Below are positions 2,779 to 21,062 of a stretch of DNA of 64,000 bases, piece after piece. The position numbers were made by a program, and so were the translations under genes. Below the pieces are notes generated by a model. That model did no database searches, was not told the DNA's origin, and was given only the letters and a program-made list of their open reading frames with translations. The number at the start of each line of letters is the position of its first letter. Within the stretch, counting starts at the first letter, position 1. The DNA is from Melioribacteraceae bacterium (GTDB lineage: Bacteria > Bacteroidota > Ignavibacteria > Ignavibacteriales > Melioribacteraceae). The stretch spans positions 1-64,000 of the forward strand of contig JAEINS010000006.1 of the NCBI GenBank assembly GCA_016342755.1, given 5' to 3'.

Positions 2779-3476
2779 TAAAACGAAAAAAAATATTATT
2801 GGTTGAAGACGATGTAAATTTAGGCAGTATCTTAAAAGATTTTTTAGGTCTTAAAGAATACGAAGTTATACTTTGTTCTGATGGCGAAGAAGGTTTAAAG
2901 GAGTTTTATAATAGCCGTTTTGATATCTGTATTCTTGATGTTATGATGCCTAAACTTGACGGCTTTACCATGGCAAAAGAAATTCGGGGGAAAGACAGCA
3001 AAACTCCTATTGTTTTTTTAACTGCAAAATCGATGCTTGAAGATAAACTTGAAGGACTTAAACTTGGTGCTGATGATTACATGACCAAACCTTTCAGCTC
3101 TGAGGAATTATTGCTTCGCATAAATGCTATTTTAAAAAGAAGCTCAGCAAATAGTTATAATGGAAATTCCTTTTCAAATGAATTTGAAATTGGAAGTTAT
3201 AACTTTGATTATAACAAACGGTTATTAACTCGTAATGGAAATGATCAAAAGCTGACTTCAAAAGAATCTGAACTTCTTAAACTGCTTTGCTTAAGTAAAA
3301 ATGAGGTAATGAACCGGTCAGAAGCTTTGAAGTCGATCTGGAATGAAGATTCTTATTTTACCGGAAGAAGTATGGATGTTTACATTGCAAAACTTAGAAA
3401 TTATTTAAAAGAAGATCCGTGTATAGAAATTATAAATGTTCATGGTGCCGGATTTAAGCTGATAGAAAATTGTTAG
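2775..3476 (+). CDS. OmpR-family response regulator
   Basis: A 233-residue two-domain regulator. The receiver domain (about 1-120) has the acidic pair EDD, phosphoacceptor Asp55 in LDVMMP, the conserved Thr in FLTAK and the Lys in TKPFS. The C-terminal winged helix (about 135-233) has the LTSKESELLKLL start and the usual RSMDVYIAKLR recognition region. It starts inside the last codons of the kinase gene. The phased GTTAA boxes at 1123-1158 are a natural candidate for its binding site. Confidence 0.95.
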   Translation: MIKRKKILLVEDDVNLGSILKDFLGLKEYEVILCSDGEEGLKEFYNSRFDICILDVMMPKLDGFTMAKEIRGKDSKTPIVFLTAKSMLEDKLEGLKLGADDYMTKPFSSEELLLRINAILKRSSANSYNGNSFSNEFEIGSYNFDYNKRLLTRNGNDQKLTSKESELLKLLCLSKNEVMNRSEALKSIWNEDSYFTGRSMDVYIAKLRNYLKEDPCIEIINVHGAGFKLIENC

Positions 3477-3539
3477 GTAAAGGTTCTTATCCCGGGCGTG
3501 AGGGAGTTCGAATTCACTCTGTGTTACACAATCAAATTA

Positions 3540-4865
3540 TTATTTCTCTTTCCCAATCGCATTAATAAAGGGTTTCATCAAATAGGTGTTTGATAAAATT
3601 CTTCCCGCTACATAAGCCGCCGCCGCCGCGACTGCGCCTACAAAATCGAAAACATTTGTTAAGATAAAGAGAGTTAATAAAATTCCGCAAACTTCTAAAA
3701 TACTTGCCATTGTAATTGGTTTTGTCTTTCTGCTGTTTACGAGCATTGCCCGCTGAAACGAAATTAAAATTGTTAATACCGGAAGTATAAACAATATCTG
3801 CGATGGTGTAATTGCAAATTGTGTTAGTTCTAATGAGAGTCCGGAAATGTCCCTGAACCAAAAAGTAGAAAGTGGTGAGAATGTGATTAAGCCTAATATA
3901 ACCATAACGCCGACTGACATATAAACAGCAAAGTTTTTGAGTAATTTATAATTCTTATTTTTATCATCCATTAATGCAATTATAACTTCTTGATACGATA
4001 ACCCGACTGCTCTAAAAATAAATATCAGAGAATTTACAACCGGCAGAACGGCTAGTGATTCAATCGGGAATCTGCTTTGCCCCATAAAAAATGTAACCAT
4101 CGGATGTACACCCAGCGACAAAATTGAAGTCATTGCCAGTGGATAATAAAACCTAAAGATTCCTCTATAATTTAATTTTTCAACTTCTTCAAACTCATCT
4201 GCCAAATATTTTTTAACAATACCCAGACACATTAATTTAGTTGCTATGGCTTCAAAAATTACTCCGGCTGATAATCCACAGGCTCCTACAATAACTCCGG
4301 GGACATCTAAATATAAATACATTAATAACGCGGTTAATGACATTGAAGCTAATCTGATTACTGTTCCGTACGCTACTCGTCTGGTTAACCCGTTTTTAAT
4401 AAGTATTCCATGATACAGTCTTCTGTAACCAATGGCTGCCGGCCAGGGTAACAAAAAGAACATTGCGTTAAATGTTAAGTCGGCAATGTTTTTAGGAAGA
4501 CCAATTACAGTCATTGAAATGAAGTTAAAAACCGGCGGAATTAAACAGAATGCTAAAATAAGAGTAATAATTACATTTGCGGCGTAAGTAAAATTCTTAA
4601 GTTTTATAAATGAATCACGGTCTTTAACCAGAGCAGTAGCGGCGCTCATTATCATTATAATTGGAGCTTCGGCAATAAGCCCAAAAGAATATGCTACGCC
4701 ATAAGCTGCCAGATTAAATTTAGGTTCAATCATTCTGGCAATTAGAGCTGCTAAATAGGGCCCTTCTATAGACATCATTAGCCAGGTTGCAAGCAACGGC
4801 AGCCAAAATTTGAATATTTTTTTGTTTGTTAAATTCTGCATTTTTCGAATTAAAATTTGAAGCAA
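3540..4865 (-). CDS. MATE-superfamily / ANKH-like membrane transporter
   Basis: A 441-residue polytopic membrane protein with about 12 hydrophobic segments arranged as two halves, as in the MATE/MVF/polysaccharide-flippase superfamily. The opening (KFWLPLLATWLMMSIEGPYL, then a YGVAYSFGLIAEAP segment) reminds me more of the ANKH (progressive ankylosis) branch than of NorM-type drug exporters. ANKH proteins are linked to export of pyrophosphate, citrate or ATP-derived solutes; I infer no substrate here. It stands alone, convergent with the two-component operon. The first residues up to the second Met (residue 9) may be extra. Confidence 0.7.
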   Translation of the reverse strand: MLQILIRKMQNLTNKKIFKFWLPLLATWLMMSIEGPYLAALIARMIEPKFNLAAYGVAYSFGLIAEAPIIMIMSAATALVKDRDSFIKLKNFTYAANVIITLILAFCLIPPVFNFISMTVIGLPKNIADLTFNAMFFLLPWPAAIGYRRLYHGILIKNGLTRRVAYGTVIRLASMSLTALLMYLYLDVPGVIVGACGLSAGVIFEAIATKLMCLGIVKKYLADEFEEVEKLNYRGIFRFYYPLAMTSILSLGVHPMVTFFMGQSRFPIESLAVLPVVNSLIFIFRAVGLSYQEVIIALMDDKNKNYKLLKNFAVYMSVGVMVILGLITFSPLSTFWFRDISGLSLELTQFAITPSQILFILPVLTILISFQRAMLVNSRKTKPITMASILEVCGILLTLFILTNVFDFVGAVAAAAAYVAGRILSNTYLMKPFINAIGKEK

Positions 4866-4965
4866 AAAAGTATTGTTATAAAATTACTAATCAAAATATT
4901 ATTTGAGTTTTTAATTTCATTTACAACTGGAGTTTTTCCCGACTGTTCTAATTATTCACATATTT

Positions 4966-7095
4966 CTAGGGTAAATGTTTTATTAAATTTATATTTTTAA
5001 TTTCACCGGCAATTACCAAAATATCGTTTTCGGCAATTATATGATCCGGACTTGGTATAGCCTTAACTTTATTACCTCTTTTTCCATGTGTTTTAATAGA
5101 GAGAACATCTACGCCATATTTTGCACGAATACGAATTTCTCTTATTGAACTTCCAATAAATGATTTTGGAGGTTCAATTTCTGCAACTGAATAACCTTCC
5201 ATAAATTGAACATTTGTTTCTTCTCCGCTCATGGAAATAGTACTTGCAAGTGTAGATGTAATATCGCGTCTTTCAATTTCTTTTTGATACGCGTCCTGTA
5301 TGTCTTTGCGCCAGATCATGCCTAATACTTTTTTATCTTTTACGTTATCAATTACAGGCAGTCCTTCAAGATCGAACCTTTTTAATTTATCCAAAACAAT
5401 CTGACAATTATCATCTTCAATAATCGATTCAAAATTTAGATTGGAAATATCGCCTGCTATTAAAAGAGCTGAAAGTTCTTCTTTTTCAAAAAGATATTCT
5501 TTAATGCTATCCATCGATAATAATCCCATAACCTTGCCAAACGGGTTAACTACGGGAAAATCAGGTCCTCTGCCGCCAATCATTTTTTTTACAACCTGAT
5601 TAAAATTATCATTTGTGTTAATAGAATCAAACTTTGGATTATAGACATCTTTTACAAAAATAGATTCCATAACATTAGTCTCAGTCCCTTCTTTTATACT
5701 AATATTTCTGTGAAGCAATTTTAGAGTGTAAATAGATTCTCTGGAAAGTTTTGATGATAATATTACACTAATAATACAAACAATCATTAATGGAAGTATA
5801 ATATTATAATCGTTTGTTAATTCGAACACTATAATTATAGCTGTTATAGGAGCTCTTGTTGTACCTGCTACAAGTCCGCCCATTGCCACAAGGGCATATG
5901 CACCGGGATCGGCCGTAATATTGGGAAACCATTGATGAACCAGTCCGCCGAAAAAAGCTCCAAGTGTAGCACCCATAAATAGAGAAGGGGCAAAAATACC
6001 GCCGGATCCTCCGGTTCCAAGAGTAACTGAAGTTGCAAAAATTTTCAAAAAGATTAACATCAGTGCTACATACCAAATCATGTTGCCATGAAGCGCGTTG
6101 TTTATTGAGTCATATCCAATACCCATTATTTCGGGGAATAACAGTGCTAATGCGCCAATTACTAAACCGCCCACAACTGGTTTAAGGTATTCCGGGAACT
6201 TAAATTTATTATCAAAAAAATCTTCTGAAAAATATAGAGCTTTTATAAACATCCATGATACAAGTCCGCTTATTATTCCAAGAGCAAAATAAAATACCAT
6301 TTCATAAGGAGAAGCATATTTATAAGCAGGAACTATAAAAGCAGCAAAACGTCCTTCAAAGTGATGCGAGATTACAGTCGCCATTACGGAGGAAATTACA
6401 ATTGGTGAAAACTGGGCAACCGCAAAATCCATTAATATTATTTCCAGCGCAAAAAGTGCGCCTGCAACCGGAGCGTTAAATGCTGCAGCAATACCAGCCG
6501 CCGCACCACATCCTACAAGTGTTTTCATGCGCTTTGGGGGAATTCTGAAAAATTGCCCGACTGTTGAACCCAGGCTGGAACCAATTTGAATAATTGGACC
6601 TTCTCTACCAACCGAGCCGCCTGTACCAATTGTAATGGCGGAAGCTAAAGCTTTAACCATTGCCACACGAGGTCTAATTTTTCCGCCGCGTAAAAGTATT
6701 GCCTGCATTACTTCCGGTACACCATGCCCTTTTGCTTCGGGTGCAAAAAAGTAAATTAATGGACCAACAATTAATCCGCCAATTGCCGGTACTAAAACTT
6801 TAATATACCAGGGAGCCAGCATTATTCGCTCTAAAAGACTGCCTTCGCCCGCAAAAGATATTAGGGAAATTTCTTCAATCAAAAACCTGATTCCAATTGC
6901 GGCAAATCCGCCAAGTACTCCAATAATAATTGCCACAATTATCATAAACGTATGTTCTGTTAATTTTGCCTTTTCTACTAAATCAACAGTCTTTTTTGAA
7001 ATATTTGTATATAGTTTTTTTATAAGGTGCGACGTCACTCTTACTCCTAATCCGCTCAATAACAATTTGAAAAATAGGATTATAAAAGGAATCAA
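4966..7095 (-). CDS. ClC-type chloride channel/antiporter with CBS and TrkA_C domains
   Basis: A 709-residue fusion. The ClC membrane domain (about 45-450) shows the three signature loops: GHGVPEV at 123-129, GSVGREGP at 160-167 with the gating glutamate at 165, and a GSGGIFAPSLF loop near 375. Two CBS repeats follow (about 465-610), then a C-terminal TrkA_C/RCK-C-like domain (about 640-709, with GSSIREIRIRAKYGVDVL). Keeping the gating glutamate is expected of H+/Cl- exchange. The added CBS and TrkA_C modules suggest control by a nucleotide ligand. It is divergent from the DUF134 regulator, and the long intergenic region carries that regulator's operators. Confidence 0.93.
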   Translation of the reverse strand: MIPFIILFFKLLLSGLGVRVTSHLIKKLYTNISKKTVDLVEKAKLTEHTFMIIVAIIIGVLGGFAAIGIRFLIEEISLISFAGEGSLLERIMLAPWYIKVLVPAIGGLIVGPLIYFFAPEAKGHGVPEVMQAILLRGGKIRPRVAMVKALASAITIGTGGSVGREGPIIQIGSSLGSTVGQFFRIPPKRMKTLVGCGAAAGIAAAFNAPVAGALFALEIILMDFAVAQFSPIVISSVMATVISHHFEGRFAAFIVPAYKYASPYEMVFYFALGIISGLVSWMFIKALYFSEDFFDNKFKFPEYLKPVVGGLVIGALALLFPEIMGIGYDSINNALHGNMIWYVALMLIFLKIFATSVTLGTGGSGGIFAPSLFMGATLGAFFGGLVHQWFPNITADPGAYALVAMGGLVAGTTRAPITAIIIVFELTNDYNIILPLMIVCIISVILSSKLSRESIYTLKLLHRNISIKEGTETNVMESIFVKDVYNPKFDSINTNDNFNQVVKKMIGGRGPDFPVVNPFGKVMGLLSMDSIKEYLFEKEELSALLIAGDISNLNFESIIEDDNCQIVLDKLKRFDLEGLPVIDNVKDKKVLGMIWRKDIQDAYQKEIERRDITSTLASTISMSGEETNVQFMEGYSVAEIEPPKSFIGSSIREIRIRAKYGVDVLSIKTHGKRGNKVKAIPSPDHIIAENDILVIAGEIKNINLIKHLP

Positions 7096-9047: not shown

Positions 9048-9912
9048 AATAGTTTTCATATCAGGTAAAGGCGGAACCGGTAAAACCTCAATAACTGCCT
9101 CATTTGCCTATCTTCTGGCTGATAAATGTGTTGTGGCCGACTGTGATGTTGATGCCGCAAACATGCATCTTTTGTTGGATCCTGTAAAATTGAGTGAAGA
9201 AGATTTTTATAGCGGAGTAGTTCCGGGAATTGATTACAACAGATGCAACAATTGCGGAGCCTGCGCGGATGTATGCAGATTTAATGCTATAAACGAACAG
9301 GATGGCAAATACGCAATAAATATTATTGATTGTGAAGGCTGCGGTTATTGTGCCAGAGTTTGTCCTTCCGGGGCAATTATAATGGAAGAAAATAATGTTG
9401 GAAAATATTTTGTTTCTAATACCCGGCTAAAAAACACAATGGTTCACGCGCACCTTAAAATTGGAGCTGAAAATTCCGGTAAACTAGTTGCTAAAGTAAA
9501 AAAAGAAGCTGTACATGCGGCAAAAAATAATGGGAAAGAATTTGTACTTGTTGATGGTTCTCCTGGAATTGGATGTCCAGTTATATCTTCACTATCCGGT
9601 GCCGACTTTGTTGTAATAGTTACTGAACCTACCGTTTCTGGTTTTCACGATTTAAAACGTGTATACGAATTGGTAAAAAAGTTTGGTCTTAAAGCTGGAT
9701 GTATTATAAATAAATCAGATTTAAATCTGAACATAACAAATGAAATTAGCTGCTATTTAGATGAAGAAAAAATTGTTCATCTATCAGACATAAAGTATGA
9801 TCAGTCATTTTCTAAAGCTATAATTGAAGGAAAAACAATAGCTGAATATAATCCCGGAATTGCTGAACAACTAAGTGAGAATTGGACTGAAATAATTTCA
9901 CATCTGAATTAA
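9040..9912 (+). CDS. MinD/Mrp-family P-loop ATPase with ferredoxin insert (second copy)
   Basis: A 290-residue paralogue of the preceding gene, with the same layout: Walker A SGKGGTGKT at 8-16 and cysteines C69/72/75/79 and C98/101/104/108 for two 4Fe-4S clusters. A GGAGG at 9030-9034 sets the start at 9040; longer in-frame starts begin within the previous gene. The two copies differ clearly in sequence, so they probably act as a heterodimer rather than as redundant enzymes. It is followed after 12 bp by the second NifX-like gene. Confidence 0.92.
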   Translation: MHEIVFISGKGGTGKTSITASFAYLLADKCVVADCDVDAANMHLLLDPVKLSEEDFYSGVVPGIDYNRCNNCGACADVCRFNAINEQDGKYAINIIDCEGCGYCARVCPSGAIIMEENNVGKYFVSNTRLKNTMVHAHLKIGAENSGKLVAKVKKEAVHAAKNNGKEFVLVDGSPGIGCPVISSLSGADFVVIVTEPTVSGFHDLKRVYELVKKFGLKAGCIINKSDLNLNITNEISCYLDEEKIVHLSDIKYDQSFSKAIIEGKTIAEYNPGIAEQLSENWTEIISHLN

Positions 9913-9924
9913 AAGGAATTTAAA

Positions 9925-10269
9925 ATGAAAATAATATTTACCAGTAAAGGAAAAGATTGGGATTCTAAAATTGATCCCAGATTTGGCAGAACAGAATTTA
10001 TTTTAACATACGATACTGAAAAAGATTTATTAGAAAATTATGATAATTCGTCTGTAGCTGAAGAAGCGCACGGTGCCGGACCAAGAACAGCAAAAATAAT
10101 TTATGATTTAACTCCGGATGTTTTAATTACAGGCAATGGTCCCGGCAATAACGCGATTTCAGTTTTAAACGAATTAAAAATGGAAATATACACTGGTGCT
10201 GAAAACCTAAGTATTAAAGAGGCTCTTGAAGCCTATAAAAAAGGCACCTTAAATAAATTTAATAATTAA
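9925..10269 (+). CDS. Second NifX/NifB-type cofactor-binding domain protein
   Basis: A 114-residue protein of the dinitrogenase iron-molybdenum cofactor family, with the DPRFGRTEFILTYD motif near residues 17-30, the GAGPRTAKII helix and the GNGPGNNA loop. It is only distantly similar to the one at 7832, so each may pair with one of the two MinD-type ATPases. A cluster-carrying function like that of the Desulfovibrio orange protein is inferred from family and neighbours. Confidence 0.9.
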   Translation: MKIIFTSKGKDWDSKIDPRFGRTEFILTYDTEKDLLENYDNSSVAEEAHGAGPRTAKIIYDLTPDVLITGNGPGNNAISVLNELKMEIYTGAENLSIKEALEAYKKGTLNKFNN

Positions 10270-10283
10270 AATTGGAGGTTATC

Positions 10284-10568
10284 ATGCCTAGCGGAGATCG
10301 TACCGGACCAATAGGAAACGGCCCAATGACAGGAAGAAAAATGGGATTCTGTACAGGAACTAATAATATAGGTCTTGGAAACAGACGTGGAGGAAGAAGA
10401 TTTGCTCAAAATAGAAATGGCTTTAGAAGAATGAATCAGGACTTCTTTATGGATGAAGATATTACTCAACAAACTGCCGGCAGCGAAGTTGAAAACTTAA
10501 GACAGGAAATTAATAGTCTTAAAACAGATATGAGTACTATCTTAGAAAAACTGGAAAAACTTACTTAA
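10284..10568 (+). CDS. DUF5320-family small protein
   Basis: A 94-residue protein that opens with MPSGDRTGPIGNGPMTGRKM, the Gly/Pro/Thr-rich signature of DUF5320 proteins, which almost always accompany NifX-like and MinD-like genes. The middle is Arg/Asn/Gly rich and the C-terminal third is a short coiled coil (VENLRQEINSLKTDMSTILEKLEKL). GGAGG at 10274-10278 fixes the start at 10284. It may be a scaffold or chaperone for the metal cluster; its function is unknown. Confidence 0.85.
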   Translation: MPSGDRTGPIGNGPMTGRKMGFCTGTNNIGLGNRRGGRRFAQNRNGFRRMNQDFFMDEDITQQTAGSEVENLRQEINSLKTDMSTILEKLEKLT

Positions 10569-10595
10569 AATTAGTTTTACTTACTGTGGAATTTT

Positions 10596-11009
10596 ATGAT
10601 TAGAGACAGTATAAATATCAGGCCAAGATATGGTGAAGTTGATAGAATGGGTTATGTTTATCATGCCAATTATATAACGTATTTTCATCAGGCAAGAACA
10701 GAATTGCTTAGAAAATACGGCATTGATGATAACTTTCTGGAACTGAATAATATTATGCTGCCCGTAATTGAAATGAATACTAAATATCTGAAGCCTTCAT
10801 TTTACGATGAAGAAATTACAATTATCACAACAATAAATGAAATTCCCAGTACAAGATTTAAGTTTAATTTTGAAGTAAAAAATTCCAGGAATGAACTTGT
10901 TTGCCAAGCAGAATCTACATTGGTTTTTTGTGATTCAATTTCCAGAAAACCGGGGAGAATTCCATCTTTAGTAAAAGACGCATTAATAAATAATTTTGAG
11001 GTAAAATAA
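10596..11009 (+). CDS. YbgC/4HBT-type acyl-CoA thioesterase
   Basis: A 137-residue hot-dog fold protein. The diagnostic segment near residues 12-35 reads RYGEVDRMGYVYHANYITYF, with the catalytic-type Asp16 and the Tyr-His-Ala-Asn motif of YbgC-like thioesterases. It lies 27 bp after the DUF5320 gene and almost touches the next gene, so it appears to be co-transcribed with the ORP-like cluster. The substrate is unknown; a link to CoA-thiol or persulfide metabolism is suggested by the CoA-disulfide reductase at the end of the operon. Confidence 0.88.
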   Translation: MIRDSINIRPRYGEVDRMGYVYHANYITYFHQARTELLRKYGIDDNFLELNNIMLPVIEMNTKYLKPSFYDEEITIITTINEIPSTRFKFNFEVKNSRNELVCQAESTLVFCDSISRKPGRIPSLVKDALINNFEVK

Positions 11010-16156: not shown

Positions 16157-17410
16157 CTAAGTTTTCTGCTTTTTCTTTTTTGCGGCCGGGAAAAGTATGT
16201 TATTCAAAATCAATCTATATCCGGCTGAGTTTTTATACAGATTCAGATCAGTTGGTTTATCTTCAACTAAATGTTTATAATCTTCAGGATCGTGTCCGCC
16301 GTAAAACGTAAAAAATCCTCGTCCAAACTTCCCGTGAATATATCTTACCTGTTCCATGTCATTACGTTTTCCCATAACAATAACTGACTTTTTCAAAGTC
16401 CTTTCTCTAAACATAGTTGTCTGTCCCATGAAACCGCGGATAACATTTAAATGATTCTGAGTTAACATTGTAGGAACCGGATCATATTTTGCCGAAAATT
16501 CAAACAGTGTAAAATAATCGTTGTCTTCACTCCCTATTTCTTCTAACTGAATATCAACATCACTGTATTCATATTTATAAGGATTCATCTCAAGTTTAAA
16601 ATCAGAAAAGGCTAATGTTTTTGAGAAATCTAGTTTTTCCTGTGCGTTTGGATCGGGTGAATCACCATCATACATTCTATCACATATATCTACATTCTCA
16701 GCAGCCAAAGCTATATCGTAAGAATCAGCCGCAGAACACATCGCAAAAAGAAATCCGCCATTGCCAATATATTCTTTTATAGTTTTAACTACAGCCAACT
16801 CCATTTGTGAAACCTTCTTAAAGCCTAGTTTAGAAGCCATTTTTTCGAATAACAACTGCTGATCGATGTACCATTGCTGATTTGCATAACTTCCGTAAAA
16901 CTTTCCGTACTGACCTGTAAAATCTTCATGATGAAGATGAAGCCAGTCATATTTTTCAAGATCGCCGTGCAAGATTTCCTCTATCCAAATTTTGGTATAG
17001 GGAACCTCCGCATATTCCAGCACCATTGTTACCGCGTCATCCCAAGGCTGATGTCCCGGAGTTACATATACCGCTATTTTTGGCGATTTCTCTAATCTTA
17101 CAACTTCCATATTCTGATCTTCACTCTGCACAAAGGAATATATGTCAACAGTTTCCTGTGGTCCAACAACCTCAAACGCAACTCCTTTTAATCGGCATAA
17201 AGCAGCAATTGTTTCAGAATACTCAAGCATAAATGATCCGCCACGGTAATTTAAAAGCCAGTCTGCTTTGGTTCCATTCTCAATTGCGTTAAAGGTTATT
17301 CCGTAAGCTTTAAGATGATCTGTTTGTTTAAGATCCATGTTTATAAGTATTCTGGATTGTGCGGAAACTGTTGTGAAGAATATTAGAAGTGTGAATATAT
17401 ATTTTTTCAT
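16157..17410 (-). CDS. Conserved secreted protein often mislabelled asparagine synthetase B
   Basis: A 417-residue protein with a signal peptide (residues 1-17, TVSAQ). The opening RILINMDLKQTDHLKAYG is the start of a family found across Bacteroidota that databases tend to label asparagine synthetase B. I see neither the N-terminal Cys2 glutaminase nor the PP-loop (SGGxDS) of real AsnB. Instead GGFLFAMCSAADSYD near residues 218-232 resembles a nucleophile elbow of class I amidotransferase-like or ThuA/DUF4159-type folds. Another conserved patch is FFTFYGGHDPEDYKH near the end. Its function is unknown; it is located outside the cytoplasm. Confidence 0.72.
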   Translation of the reverse strand: MKKYIFTLLIFFTTVSAQSRILINMDLKQTDHLKAYGITFNAIENGTKADWLLNYRGGSFMLEYSETIAALCRLKGVAFEVVGPQETVDIYSFVQSEDQNMEVVRLEKSPKIAVYVTPGHQPWDDAVTMVLEYAEVPYTKIWIEEILHGDLEKYDWLHLHHEDFTGQYGKFYGSYANQQWYIDQQLLFEKMASKLGFKKVSQMELAVVKTIKEYIGNGGFLFAMCSAADSYDIALAAENVDICDRMYDGDSPDPNAQEKLDFSKTLAFSDFKLEMNPYKYEYSDVDIQLEEIGSEDNDYFTLFEFSAKYDPVPTMLTQNHLNVIRGFMGQTTMFRERTLKKSVIVMGKRNDMEQVRYIHGKFGRGFFTFYGGHDPEDYKHLVEDKPTDLNLYKNSAGYRLILNNILFPAAKKKKQKT

Positions 17411-17904: not shown

Positions 17905-20055
17905 ATGAGAATAACCATTGCATATAACTTACGTACCGATGATACAGAAGCTACAGCTGAGCTTCTATCCGAAGCCGACATTACTAGATTATCTGAAGCG
18001 ATTAGCAGTCTGCAACACACAGTAACAGTTGTTGAAGTTTCTGGTAAACCCAATAAAATAATTGAACGTCTTCTTGAAAGCGAACCTGACCTTATTTTTA
18101 ATGTAGCAGAAGGTACCATTGGCAGTTCAAGGGAAGCCTTTTATCCGGGTTTATATGAACAAATGGGAATTCCGTTTACGGGTGGAAATGCTTCTCTTCT
18201 TCATCTCAATCTCGATAAGCATCTCGCAAAAACTGTTTTATCTTCTCATGGGGTAAGTGTTCCCAGAGGCGTTTTGATTACTGAGAAAGAGCGCAATTTA
18301 CCAGATGATTTAGATTATCCTTTAATGATTAAACCAAATTCTGAAGGTTCAAGCAAGGGTATTACCCAAGAGTCAGTTGTGGAAACAAAGGAACAAGCTC
18401 TGGCAAGAATAAATAAGCTTTTAAGCCATTATCCTGCCGGTCTTGTTGTTGAAGAATATATAGATGGCCGTGAACTAAGTGTTCCTTTTCTGGAAAGTTT
18501 TCCGGGTAAGCTGCTTGACATTGTTGAACATACTTTTGATATGAGTAAGTTAGGGGGTAAATACAATATTTACGATTATGACATGAAACAGGGCGGTGAG
18601 GCAGCAAAATCAGTAAGTGTTATTTGCCCGGCAACTATTAACGCCGAAGAAGAAAAAGCAGTAACAAAAATGGCCCGGGAAGTTTTTGAGATCATGTCAT
18701 GTCCAGATGTTGGCAGGGTAGATATTCGATTAAATTCCAAGGGAAAACCCTATTTTATTGAACTTAATCCTTTGCCAAGTCTTCATCCGGTTGCTTCCCT
18801 TATGACTGCAGCCAAATCTCGCGGGCTCGAATTTCGTGATACCTTGCGATTAATTATTCGTTCTGCCGCACGTCGTTATGGTTTAGCAATTAAATCTGCC
18901 AGGCAGCCTAAAAAAGATGACTTCTCATTTGAAATACCACGCCCTAATGCAAGAGAACTTGGAATTCAAACAGGCAGGATGTGTCCTGGAATCAATAATG
19001 CTATTACGGATGTAAAAGGTGTACGCGTAGGTCATTTTACGCGTGTTGAAGATAATGTGAAAATTCCGGGGGAGTCAGAAATTAGTAATATACGTACCGG
19101 TGTTACAGCCATAATGCCTGCCGGACAAGCTTATTCAAACCGCATAGCTGCGGGTGGTTTTATATTAAATGGCGTGGGTGAAATGGCTGGTTTAACACAA
19201 GTAATTGAAACGGGTTGGCTTGAAACACCTATTCTTTTAACAAATTCACATTCAGTTGGCAGGGTTCATACGGGTGTTGTTAATCACATGATAAAGAAGT
19301 ATCCACAACTTGGTACCGAAACTGATGTGGTTTTACCTGTAGTTGGAGAAGCTGACGATTCTTTTTTAAATGATATTAGAGTAGGAACATGTTCGGCTCA
19401 GGATGCAATTAAGGCAATGGAGTCAGCTGCCACTGGTCCGGTAAAACAAGGGTCTATTGGTGCTGGTACTGGAATGACAAGTTTTGATTTTGCCGGAGGA
19501 ATAGGAACTTCCTCCCGAATTTTAAATTTATCCGAAAGCAGTACATTTACTGTTGGTGTGCTTGTTCTTTCTAATTTTGGAAAAATGCGTAATCTCACCC
19601 TTGATGGTGGTGTTGTAGGTAGAGATTTAGACAAGGAATTCGATCAGGCAGGACGCAGAGAAGTATCAGAAGGATCGATCATAGTTGTTGTTGCAACCGA
19701 TATTCCTCTTATCAATAGTCAGCTAAACCGTGTGGCAAAACGAGCTGCACTCGGACTTGGTCGTACCGGTTCTTATGCGGCTTCAACGAGTGGTGAAATT
19801 ATTATTGCTTTTAGTACCGGAAACCGTAAGCCGCGAGTCAATACTTCTAAAAGCAATTTTATTAACTTAAAATGTGTCTCGGACAATAATATTGATATGG
19901 TTTACGAAGCTGTTGTTGAAGCAACCGAAGAGGCGGTTATAAACGCTATATTTTGCTCTAATGGAATGAATGGGAGAAAAGAGCGTCAATGTCCGGCAGT
20001 TCCACATCAACGTATTCTTGAATTATTAAACAAAGAAAATGAGCTAGTCAAATGA
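17905..20055 (+). CDS. ATP-grasp ligase fused to P1/DmpA-type aminopeptidase
   Basis: A 716-residue two-domain protein. Residues 1-330 are a D-Ala-D-Ala-ligase-like ATP-grasp domain (nucleotide-binding MIKPNSEGSSKGI, EEYIDGRELSVP, metal-binding FIELNPLPSLHP). Residues about 353-716 are a P1-family (DmpA) aminopeptidase/amidase with RMCPGINNAITDVKGVRVGH, GAGTGM, GGIGTSSR and the autoproteolysis site EG|SIIVVVATD, where Ser591 would become the N-terminal nucleophile after cleavage behind Gly590. Thus one chain can make an amide bond and another part can split one. It overlaps the HDAC-like gene by 4 bp. CGN arginine codons are unusually common compared with neighbours, which hints at transfer. 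Confidence 0.88.
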   Translation: MRITIAYNLRTDDTEATAELLSEADITRLSEAISSLQHTVTVVEVSGKPNKIIERLLESEPDLIFNVAEGTIGSSREAFYPGLYEQMGIPFTGGNASLLHLNLDKHLAKTVLSSHGVSVPRGVLITEKERNLPDDLDYPLMIKPNSEGSSKGITQESVVETKEQALARINKLLSHYPAGLVVEEYIDGRELSVPFLESFPGKLLDIVEHTFDMSKLGGKYNIYDYDMKQGGEAAKSVSVICPATINAEEEKAVTKMAREVFEIMSCPDVGRVDIRLNSKGKPYFIELNPLPSLHPVASLMTAAKSRGLEFRDTLRLIIRSAARRYGLAIKSARQPKKDDFSFEIPRPNARELGIQTGRMCPGINNAITDVKGVRVGHFTRVEDNVKIPGESEISNIRTGVTAIMPAGQAYSNRIAAGGFILNGVGEMAGLTQVIETGWLETPILLTNSHSVGRVHTGVVNHMIKKYPQLGTETDVVLPVVGEADDSFLNDIRVGTCSAQDAIKAMESAATGPVKQGSIGAGTGMTSFDFAGGIGTSSRILNLSESSTFTVGVLVLSNFGKMRNLTLDGGVVGRDLDKEFDQAGRREVSEGSIIVVVATDIPLINSQLNRVAKRAALGLGRTGSYAASTSGEIIIAFSTGNRKPRVNTSKSNFINLKCVSDNNIDMVYEAVVEATEEAVINAIFCSNGMNGRKERQCPAVPHQRILELLNKENELVK

Positions 20056-21062
20056 AAGTAATAGAAAAATATAACGATAGTTTACATAACCCATATTGGA
20101 AATATCAGCTCGGCCCCGAAGCTTACGAAGTAAAGGACACTCCACTTCGCGTTGAATCTATCAAGAAAGCACTTCGTGCTGACAAGCGATTTGAATTTGT
20201 AACAGCCAAACAATTTCCGGAAAGACTGATTTCACGAATCCATCCTTACCATGATTATATTCTTAAAACTGGATTAAGTTTAAAAGACGATGATGAAGAG
20301 TTCTATCCGGATCTATTTCCCGGCGAAGGTGCTAATCTTAAGAAAAAGATTGATTCGCCTTTATGGGGCGGGATATGGTGTACCGATGCGGTTACCCCAA
20401 TTAAAAAGAAAACCTATGAAGTTGCCCGTGCATCTGCTGAAACTGCTTTAACGGGAGCAGAATTACTTCGGAAAGGAGATGAAAAAACCGTATACGCCTT
20501 GTGCCGTCCTTCGGGACACCATGCGGGGCCTCGTGTTTTTGGCGGATATTGTTATTTTAACAATGTAGCTACTGCTGCTGAGTATTTATTGCCGGAGGGA
20601 AAAGTAGCCATTGTTGATATTGATTATCATCATGGAAACGGAACCCAGGAGTTTTTCGATGAAATAAAATCTGTATTTACTGCATCTATACATTGTGATC
20701 CTTCTAATGAATATCCATACTTCTGGGGATATGATGATGAGAAAGGAAAAGGACAGGCCGTTGGTACGAATCATAATGAACCTTTACCCAAGGATACACA
20801 CATTGACCAATATGCTGAGGCTGTGGATAGAATCTTAAATAAGATACGCGAGTTTAATCCCGCTTATTTAATTATTGCAGCCGGCTTTGATACACATATG
20901 GATGATCCGATTGGAGGTTTAAAGCTCAGAACTGAAGATTATATATCCATTGGTAATCAGTTTAAGTTATTAGGAATACCCACATTAGTGTGCCAGGAAG
21001 GTGGATATAATGTGGAAATTCTTGGAGATTGTGCAAAGAATTTTCTTTTGGGATTGATGTAA
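20052..21062 (+). CDS. Histone-deacetylase-like amidohydrolase (acetylpolyamine amidohydrolase type)
   Basis: A 336-residue arginase/HDAC-fold enzyme. Catalytic tandem histidines are His156-His157 (SGHHAGP). Zinc ligands are Asp191 and His193 in DIDYHHGN, and the later Asp in AAGFDTHMDDP. The GGYCYFNN motif is present. Bacterial relatives deacetylate acetylpolyamines or acetylated small molecules. The ATGA overlap with the ATP-grasp/DmpA gene indicates translational coupling, so the two probably work on one amide-containing metabolite. Compare glutathionylspermidine synthetase/amidase, another ligase-amidase fusion acting on polyamines (analogy only). Confidence 0.9.
   Translation: MKVIEKYNDSLHNPYWKYQLGPEAYEVKDTPLRVESIKKALRADKRFEFVTAKQFPERLISRIHPYHDYILKTGLSLKDDDEEFYPDLFPGEGANLKKKIDSPLWGGIWCTDAVTPIKKKTYEVARASAETALTGAELLRKGDEKTVYALCRPSGHHAGPRVFGGYCYFNNVATAAEYLLPEGKVAIVDIDYHHGNGTQEFFDEIKSVFTASIHCDPSNEYPYFWGYDDEKGKGQAVGTNHNEPLPKDTHIDQYAEAVDRILNKIREFNPAYLIIAAGFDTHMDDPIGGLKLRTEDYISIGNQFKLLGIPTLVCQEGGYNVEILGDCAKNFLLGLM

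Follow-up and report, generated by a model that had tools for sequence, protein, structure and literature searches.

Genes at the Locus

The 64,000-nucleotide stretch of a Melioribacteraceae bacterium genome analyzed here (contig JAEINS010000006.1, positions 1 to 64,000; "the window") encodes an ATP-grasp ligase fused to a hydrolase and, overlapping it, a histone deacetylase (HDAC)-type enzyme. This two-gene cassette is real, conserved, transferred, and unusual; we give about even weight to the proposal that it belongs, as a horizontally spreading unit, to the metabolism of β-lysine.

The fusion gene (17905..20055, + strand) is a single open reading frame (ORF) of 716 amino acids. Its first part is a Ddl-like ATP-grasp domain (17905..18894, + strand; residues 1-330) with a Pfam match to PF07478 at residues 129-318 (4.5e-29), and its second part an S58/P1/DmpA-type N-terminal nucleophile (Ntn) hydrolase domain (18949..20040, + strand; residues 349-712) with a match to PF03576 at residues 365-695 (5.2e-105; 351.8 bits against a cut-off of 23.9, covering profile positions 1-306 of 307). 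Both matches are above cut-off, and the only further Pfam matches are to PF02655 and PF13535. Solved Ddl chains align with residues ~58-323 and solved chains of DmpA/BapA-type aminopeptidases with residues ~346-712, the nearest S58 chain being 2drh, named a D-aminopeptidase. An AlphaFold model of the fusion had a mean confidence (pLDDT) of 53 with the S58 part unusable, so it was left out of the fold searches.

The hydrolase resembles the peptidases of family S58/P1 (DmpA and BapA) over the whole domain, at the Gly-Ser step, and at the aligned catalytic positions, but differs from them in being fused behind an ATP-grasp ligase. The codons GGA-TCG (19672..19677, + strand) encode Gly590-Ser591, the predicted self-cleavage step and serine nucleophile; the pair aligns with Gly-Ser in DmpA and Asn-Ser in BapA, which we take to be the self-cleavage sites of those enzymes, and is conserved in all 21 alignment rows with letters there (the other two of the 23 are gapped). 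Positions aligned with the S58 active site are invariant in the alignments made, as is Glu482, which aligns with BapA Glu133, the residue that presumably binds the substrate amine. In the ATP-grasp domain Lys143, Glu183, Arg271, Asp273, Glu286, and Asn288 are invariant in rows with letters; we take these to be nucleotide and metal positions with roles known from Ddl, and assume likewise that positions aligned with the active sites of either family have the same catalytic roles. On this alignment the ATP-grasp domain keeps intact nucleotide and metal positions.

The ligase shares its fold family and these invariant positions with Ddl and with the tandem ATP-grasps described below, but differs from them in its fusion and in several other respects. 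It scores under every curated Ddl cut-off shown (best 153.2 bits against 243), and nine ATP-grasps from cassettes group as a single clade (100/100) separate from six single-domain Ddl-like rows, in a tree whose deeper order, including where the cassette clade falls with respect to Ddl and to the tandem ligases, is weakly supported. Ala297 occupies the position of a serine in the aligned Ddl chain, a residue that we take to contact the second D-Ala. The strongest PF07478 match of the whole genome is at another locus (L023), which was taken as that organism's ddl.

The deacetylase gene (20052..21062, + strand; 336 amino acids) starts within the stop of the fusion, the two ORFs overlapping by 4 nt (ATGA), and matches PF00850 (2e-63). 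Its nearest solved relatives, both by sequence (31-36% identity) and by fold (searched with an AlphaFold model of pLDDT 77), are acetylpolyamine amidohydrolases of the class II HDAC fold, with which it also shares the zinc and tyrosine positions (Asp191, His193, Asp280, Tyr319, and His156/157, kept in 23/23 cassette HDACs). It differs from them in being the fixed partner of the fusion and at one further position: the site aligned with Glu117 of the Mycoplana enzyme, an acidic residue that we take to be characteristic of acetylpolyamine amidohydrolases, is Val in 22 of the 23 HDACs and Asp in the other. Asp112, two positions before this site, is invariant.

These observations agree with a first-pass annotation of the same DNA, which had described one protein joining an ATP-grasp to a P1/DmpA hydrolase, residues for self-cleavage between Gly590 and Ser591 (cleavage itself being a prediction), and an overlapping acetylpolyamine-amidohydrolase-type gene. 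The annotation had also taken frequent CGN arginine codons as a hint of horizontal origin, and the counts hold. CGN codons make up 27 of the 41 Arg codons in the fusion and nine of the 12 in the HDAC gene (ranks 5 and 2 among the 44 window ORFs with at least five Arg codons); the GC contents of the two genes, 40.3% and 39.3%, are the first and second highest of the same 44 ORFs (mean 33.6%).

Distribution and Horizontal Transfer

A scan across genome_contigs, in which each of 84,980 species is represented by a single genome, identified 23 further fusion loci with 62-95% identity in the best segment; the scan requires short exact peptide matches, so this number is a lower bound. The hosts are sediment bacteria of unrelated groups; by record title they include Prolixibacteraceae, Marinilabilia, Tangfeifania, Desulfobulbaceae (among them the cable bacteria Electronema and Electrothrix), Psychromonas, another proteobacterial metagenome-assembled genome (MAG), Kiritimatiellota, Lentisphaeria, Spartobacteria, Spirochaetes, Sumerlaeota, and Gemmatimonadetes. 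The loci span nine phyla by title, or about seven under GTDB when the PVC lineages of one phylum sample are merged. This search for the fusion and its neighbors, which the first-pass annotation had proposed, bears out the joining of the two domains, the HDAC coupling, and the intact ATP-grasp residues, with two divergent exceptions considered below: the HDAC gene lies downstream of the fusion in 22 of the 23 loci, and in the remaining one (L050) the contig ends inside the fusion. Counting these 22 loci and the window, with the start codons used for the alignments, 15 of 23 fusion-HDAC pairs have overlapping ORFs, and gaps of 9-268 nt separate the remaining eight. L050 and L055 are contig-end fragments. 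In L051 (415-2570) and L053 (5986-8156) the fusion is split between two frames, reflecting sequencing error or decay.

The cassette is rare and patchy in occurrence. A 171-amino-acid probe spanning the domain junction matched one of the 164 genomes sampled from the order to which the window belongs (the window's own genome), seven of 337 sampled from the phylum that includes a Kiritimatiellales locus, two of 375 in that of the Electrothrix locus, and one of 296 in that of the Spirochaetes locus, each sample including its centre genome. The S58 family is more widespread, with a match in 99 of 395 genomes of a Bacteroidota sample; three of the long S58 frames found there besides the window's (>590 amino acids; G060, G065, and G085) were considered as fusions and rejected, being S58 only with no ATP-grasp. 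Viral contigs gave no relative of the cassette, and although 744 plasmid records match part of the query, none covers 80% of it. One PVC genome carries a second, divergent fusion (L108, 2791-7406). A 341-amino-acid ORF that matches neither Pfam nor NCBIfam overlaps its start, a gene of the baeRF-type ribosome hibernation family precedes it, and the contig has no HDAC.

A tree of the fusion (27 rows; L077 and L108 are long branches, L098 was excluded, and L051 and L053 are represented by their first stretch alone) intermixes phyla. Forcing the eight Bacteroidota rows into a clade costs 91 log units (p-AU 1.5e-6), uniting the three Desulfobulbaceae rows costs 49 (p 0.0014), and uniting the five Kiritimatiellota rows costs 151 (p 9e-67); these groups follow record titles but were picked after the tree was seen, and L078 (G587) was treated as Kiritimatiellota since it was drawn from that phylum sample. 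Pairwise distances of fusion and HDAC are correlated (r 0.93 over 23 pairs, with 0 of 5000 permutations as high), and the correlation rises to r 0.96 without L049 and L055. Because the two genes diverged together and the tree rejects host groups as clades, our analysis identifies a horizontally transferred two-gene cassette, in keeping with the codon-based hint. Most loci are MAG contigs, where mis-binning could mimic some transfers; the cassette is also present in strain-named records without a MAG label (Marinilabilia rubra, Tangfeifania diversioriginum, and Psychromonas), which are scattered across the tree.

Genomic Context and β-Lysine Genes

N-ε-acetyl-β-lysine is the product of AblA and AblB. 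Its genes depend on salt in Methanosarcina mazei, and the compound has been suggested as an osmolyte of Pelobacter carbinolicus, according to two reports (PMC1224877, PMC3543383). The proteins flanking the cassette (n=70) are functionally mixed, and apart from the fusion and the HDAC no ORF cluster is present in more than three loci. The β-lysine N-acetyltransferase gene ablB, which emerged among the neighbor clusters as a two-locus cluster (C4), is linked to the cassette in three of 23 loci and is co-directional in all of them. In L039 it is the ORF immediately before the fusion (ablB 995-1831; fusion from 1976), and in Psychromonas (L041) the one immediately after the HDAC gene (9800-10666); both proteins score above the TIGR03827 cut-off. 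The contig of L051 opens with the final 61 nt of an ablB, ~350 nt before the fusion, and a second contig of that genome (L098) has the order ablA, MscS channel, ablB, fusion start; the L098 fusion is 87% identical in DNA to that of L051 and is either a strain variant or a second copy. The three linkages (L039, L041, and L051) sit on separate branches of the tree. By rough arithmetic, about one genome per 700 would have a given gene flanking a 3-kb stretch chosen at random, so three linkages in 23 loci are hard to call chance.

At the genome level, 20 of 26 cassette genomes carry ablA (at least 65% identity to that of the window genome) with ablB nearby, and the window genome is one of the 20. 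The window genome (L089) has the order ablA, SSF symporter, ablB, with ablA scoring 768.6 bits against a TIGR03820 cut-off of 525.4 and ablB 338.3 against a TIGR03827 cut-off of 205.1; all six ablB proteins on which TIGR03827 was run are above cut-off. Here and in several other genomes, ablA and ablB are separated or followed by a gene for a sodium:solute symporter. Of the six genomes outside the 20, G587 has ablA and the symporter gene at a contig end, and in G1096 the only KamA read is that of a tandem ATP-grasp operon. Two Kiritimatiellota genomes have an MscS-type channel gene between ablA and ablB (L096, 6263-10717, where the region also holds an SSF symporter; L098, 853-4363), a placement that fits an osmotic role.

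Related ligases point to the same chemistry. ATP-grasps 29-35% identical to that of the window occur as adjacent pairs in Bacteroidales, and in all eight loci fetched (L079-L086, chosen for two neighboring ATP-grasp matches) they are followed by a GNAT gene and a KamA gene. A proteobacterial MAG that carries the cassette at L039 (G424) has, at another locus (L070, 3363-9149), a KamA, two ATP-grasps, and a frame joining an HDAC to a C-terminal GNAT domain, the HDAC being 41% identical to the window's; this ligase type, this HDAC type, and aminomutase chemistry co-occur there a second time.

Some other genes of the window genome are also of interest. A second Ddl-like ATP-grasp is fused to an M20 peptidase (L061 on contig C34, 3096-5261); it resembles the cassette protein in joining such a ligase to a peptidase, but the peptidase is a metallopeptidase instead of S58, and the adjoining gene encodes a class-I glutamine amidotransferase instead of an HDAC (3096-5876, - strand; a close relative is found in L062). 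Near the cassette in the window, a gene for a 417-amino-acid protein without a Pfam or NCBIfam match (16157-17410, - strand) lies beside an FAA hydrolase gene.

Alternative Functions

The first-pass annotation had proposed a pathway that builds and breaks an amino-acid or polyamine conjugate, by analogy with glutathionylspermidine synthetase/amidase. Making and breaking a bond within one chain is retained here as a hypothesis, and the logic of that enzyme (ligase and amidase in one chain) is shared; its domain families are not, since both cassette domains come from other families, and CHAP and GSP_synth, which we take to be the families of the known enzyme, are not among the Pfam hits of the fusion. 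A corresponding polyamine cycle, in which acetylpolyamines freed by the HDAC are coupled to an amino acid, and uncoupled again, by the fusion, would account for the single-chain ligase and amidase and for the acetylpolyamine amidohydrolases as nearest solved relatives of the HDAC (31-36% identity). We nevertheless consider it rather unlikely: the presumed hallmark Glu117 is replaced by Val in 22 of 23 HDACs, the recurring neighbor is ablB and not a polyamine gene, and no polyamine family was common to two or more of the 70 flanking proteins among the top 25 families listed, although single ones could be missed. β-Lysine or its N-ε-acetyl derivative is a better supported substrate lead than polyamines, because ablB adjoins the cassette in three of 23 loci, ablA and ablB are present in 20 of 26 genomes, and related ATP-grasps lie in GNAT-KamA operons. 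Within the same chemistry, the cassette might instead serve scavenging, with β-lysine peptides or acetyl-β-lysine from other sediment microbes taken up as food and the ATP-grasp in a side role such as storage. The symporter genes beside ablA and ablB and the hydrolytic nature of two of the three cassette activities are in its favor, but most cassette genomes hold the synthesis genes themselves, and a degradative route needs no ATP-grasp with intact catalytic positions; we regard scavenging as unlikely.

Metabolism of D-amino-acid dipeptides, with a D-Ala-type ligase, an S58 D-aminopeptidase, and an HDAC that takes N-acetyl groups off cell-wall-derived amines, is suggested by Ddl as the nearest named ligase family and by the name of 2drh. 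Against it stand the low Ddl score, the presumed ddl elsewhere in the genome (L023), the position of the cassette clade outside the Ddl rows, and Ala297 in place of the serine that presumably touches the second D-Ala; it also leaves ablB unexplained, and we judge it highly improbable. A target of the three domains that is unrelated to β-lysine, whether protein or secondary metabolite, with the ablB linkages due to chance or to shared salt regulation, would suit the loci in which the cassette has neither ablB nor any other fixed neighbor. This too is improbable in our view: three co-directional linkages on separate branches exceed the rough chance estimate, and β-lysine chemistry appears again alongside ligases and an HDAC related to those of the cassette.

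A Possible Role in β-Lysine Metabolism

The link of the cassette to the β-lysine pathway is one that genomic context suggests, and membership in that pathway seems to us an even call; the particular reactions that follow are tentative and less likely than not. APAH-type HDACs deacetylate alkylamines, and the ε end of N-ε-acetyl-β-lysine resembles such a substrate; the cassette HDAC may strip the acetyl group from acetyl-β-lysine. The ATP-grasp domain may form an amide, via an acyl phosphate, between β-lysine or acetyl-β-lysine and a second partner, and the S58 domain, as a β-aminopeptidase acting on a free N-terminal amine, may cut the same amide. Self-cleavage at 590/591 would expose the serine nucleophile and leave the ATP-grasp and the α part of the S58 domain as one chain. 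The S58 enzymes DmpA and BapA act on β-alanyl peptides and, given activated donors, can also synthesize them, according to one report (PMC9235088); the ATP-grasp could drive ATP-dependent synthesis of the type of bond that these relatives cut. The cell could in this way shift its β-amino-acid pool among free, acetylated, and conjugated forms, for example as salinity changes.

Several observations weigh against an assignment to β-lysine metabolism. Next to the cassette, 20 of 23 loci show no ablB, although in six of the 23 less than 450 nt of sequence precedes the fusion; the count of 20 in 26 for ablA with ablB was made in cassette genomes only and is hence suggestive. In G426 ablB is present at the cassette, yet the KamA of this genome reaches only 38% and falls under the AblA cut-off; G425, G434, and G438 gave no ablA of at least 65% identity to that of the window genome. 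Two divergent fusions have no HDAC match in the stretch read (L077, 56% and 57% identical in its two domains, 18 kb; L108, 11 kb) and show that the fusion can exist without an HDAC neighbor. Among solved structures, the HDAC is closest to polyamine deacetylases, and the S58 domain to chains that carry the name D-aminopeptidase as well as to others called β-peptidyl aminopeptidase; the substrate of the ATP-grasp cannot be read from sequence. Turnover of acetyl-β-lysine in methanogens is little if any, according to PMC1224877.

The AblA/AblB osmolyte pathway (TIGR03820, TIGR03827) is the known system that the cassette adjoins. In the available portions of the reports consulted (PMC1224877, PMC3543383, PMC12776343) that pathway stops at the acetylated product, whereas the cassette adds a deacetylase, a ligase, and a hydrolase. 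Among the matches listed in a literature search of titles and the beginnings of abstracts, no description of the cassette was found; Iyer et al. 2009, the survey likeliest to note such a fusion, may carry an earlier mention. It is conceivable, though doubtful, that the cassette makes and unmakes an undescribed β-lysine peptide osmolyte by means of a self-processing synthetase/hydrolase, with a partner that deacetylates acetyl-β-lysine, as a salt-adaptation module passed between many phyla, cable bacteria included. The fusion would then offer a rare example of one chain in which a synthetase and an Ntn-hydrolase address what may be the same bond. If true, this would be the first route for dismantling acetyl-β-lysine, and a mobile enzyme pair able to dismantle or conjugate this compound would add a second half to the osmolyte pathway.

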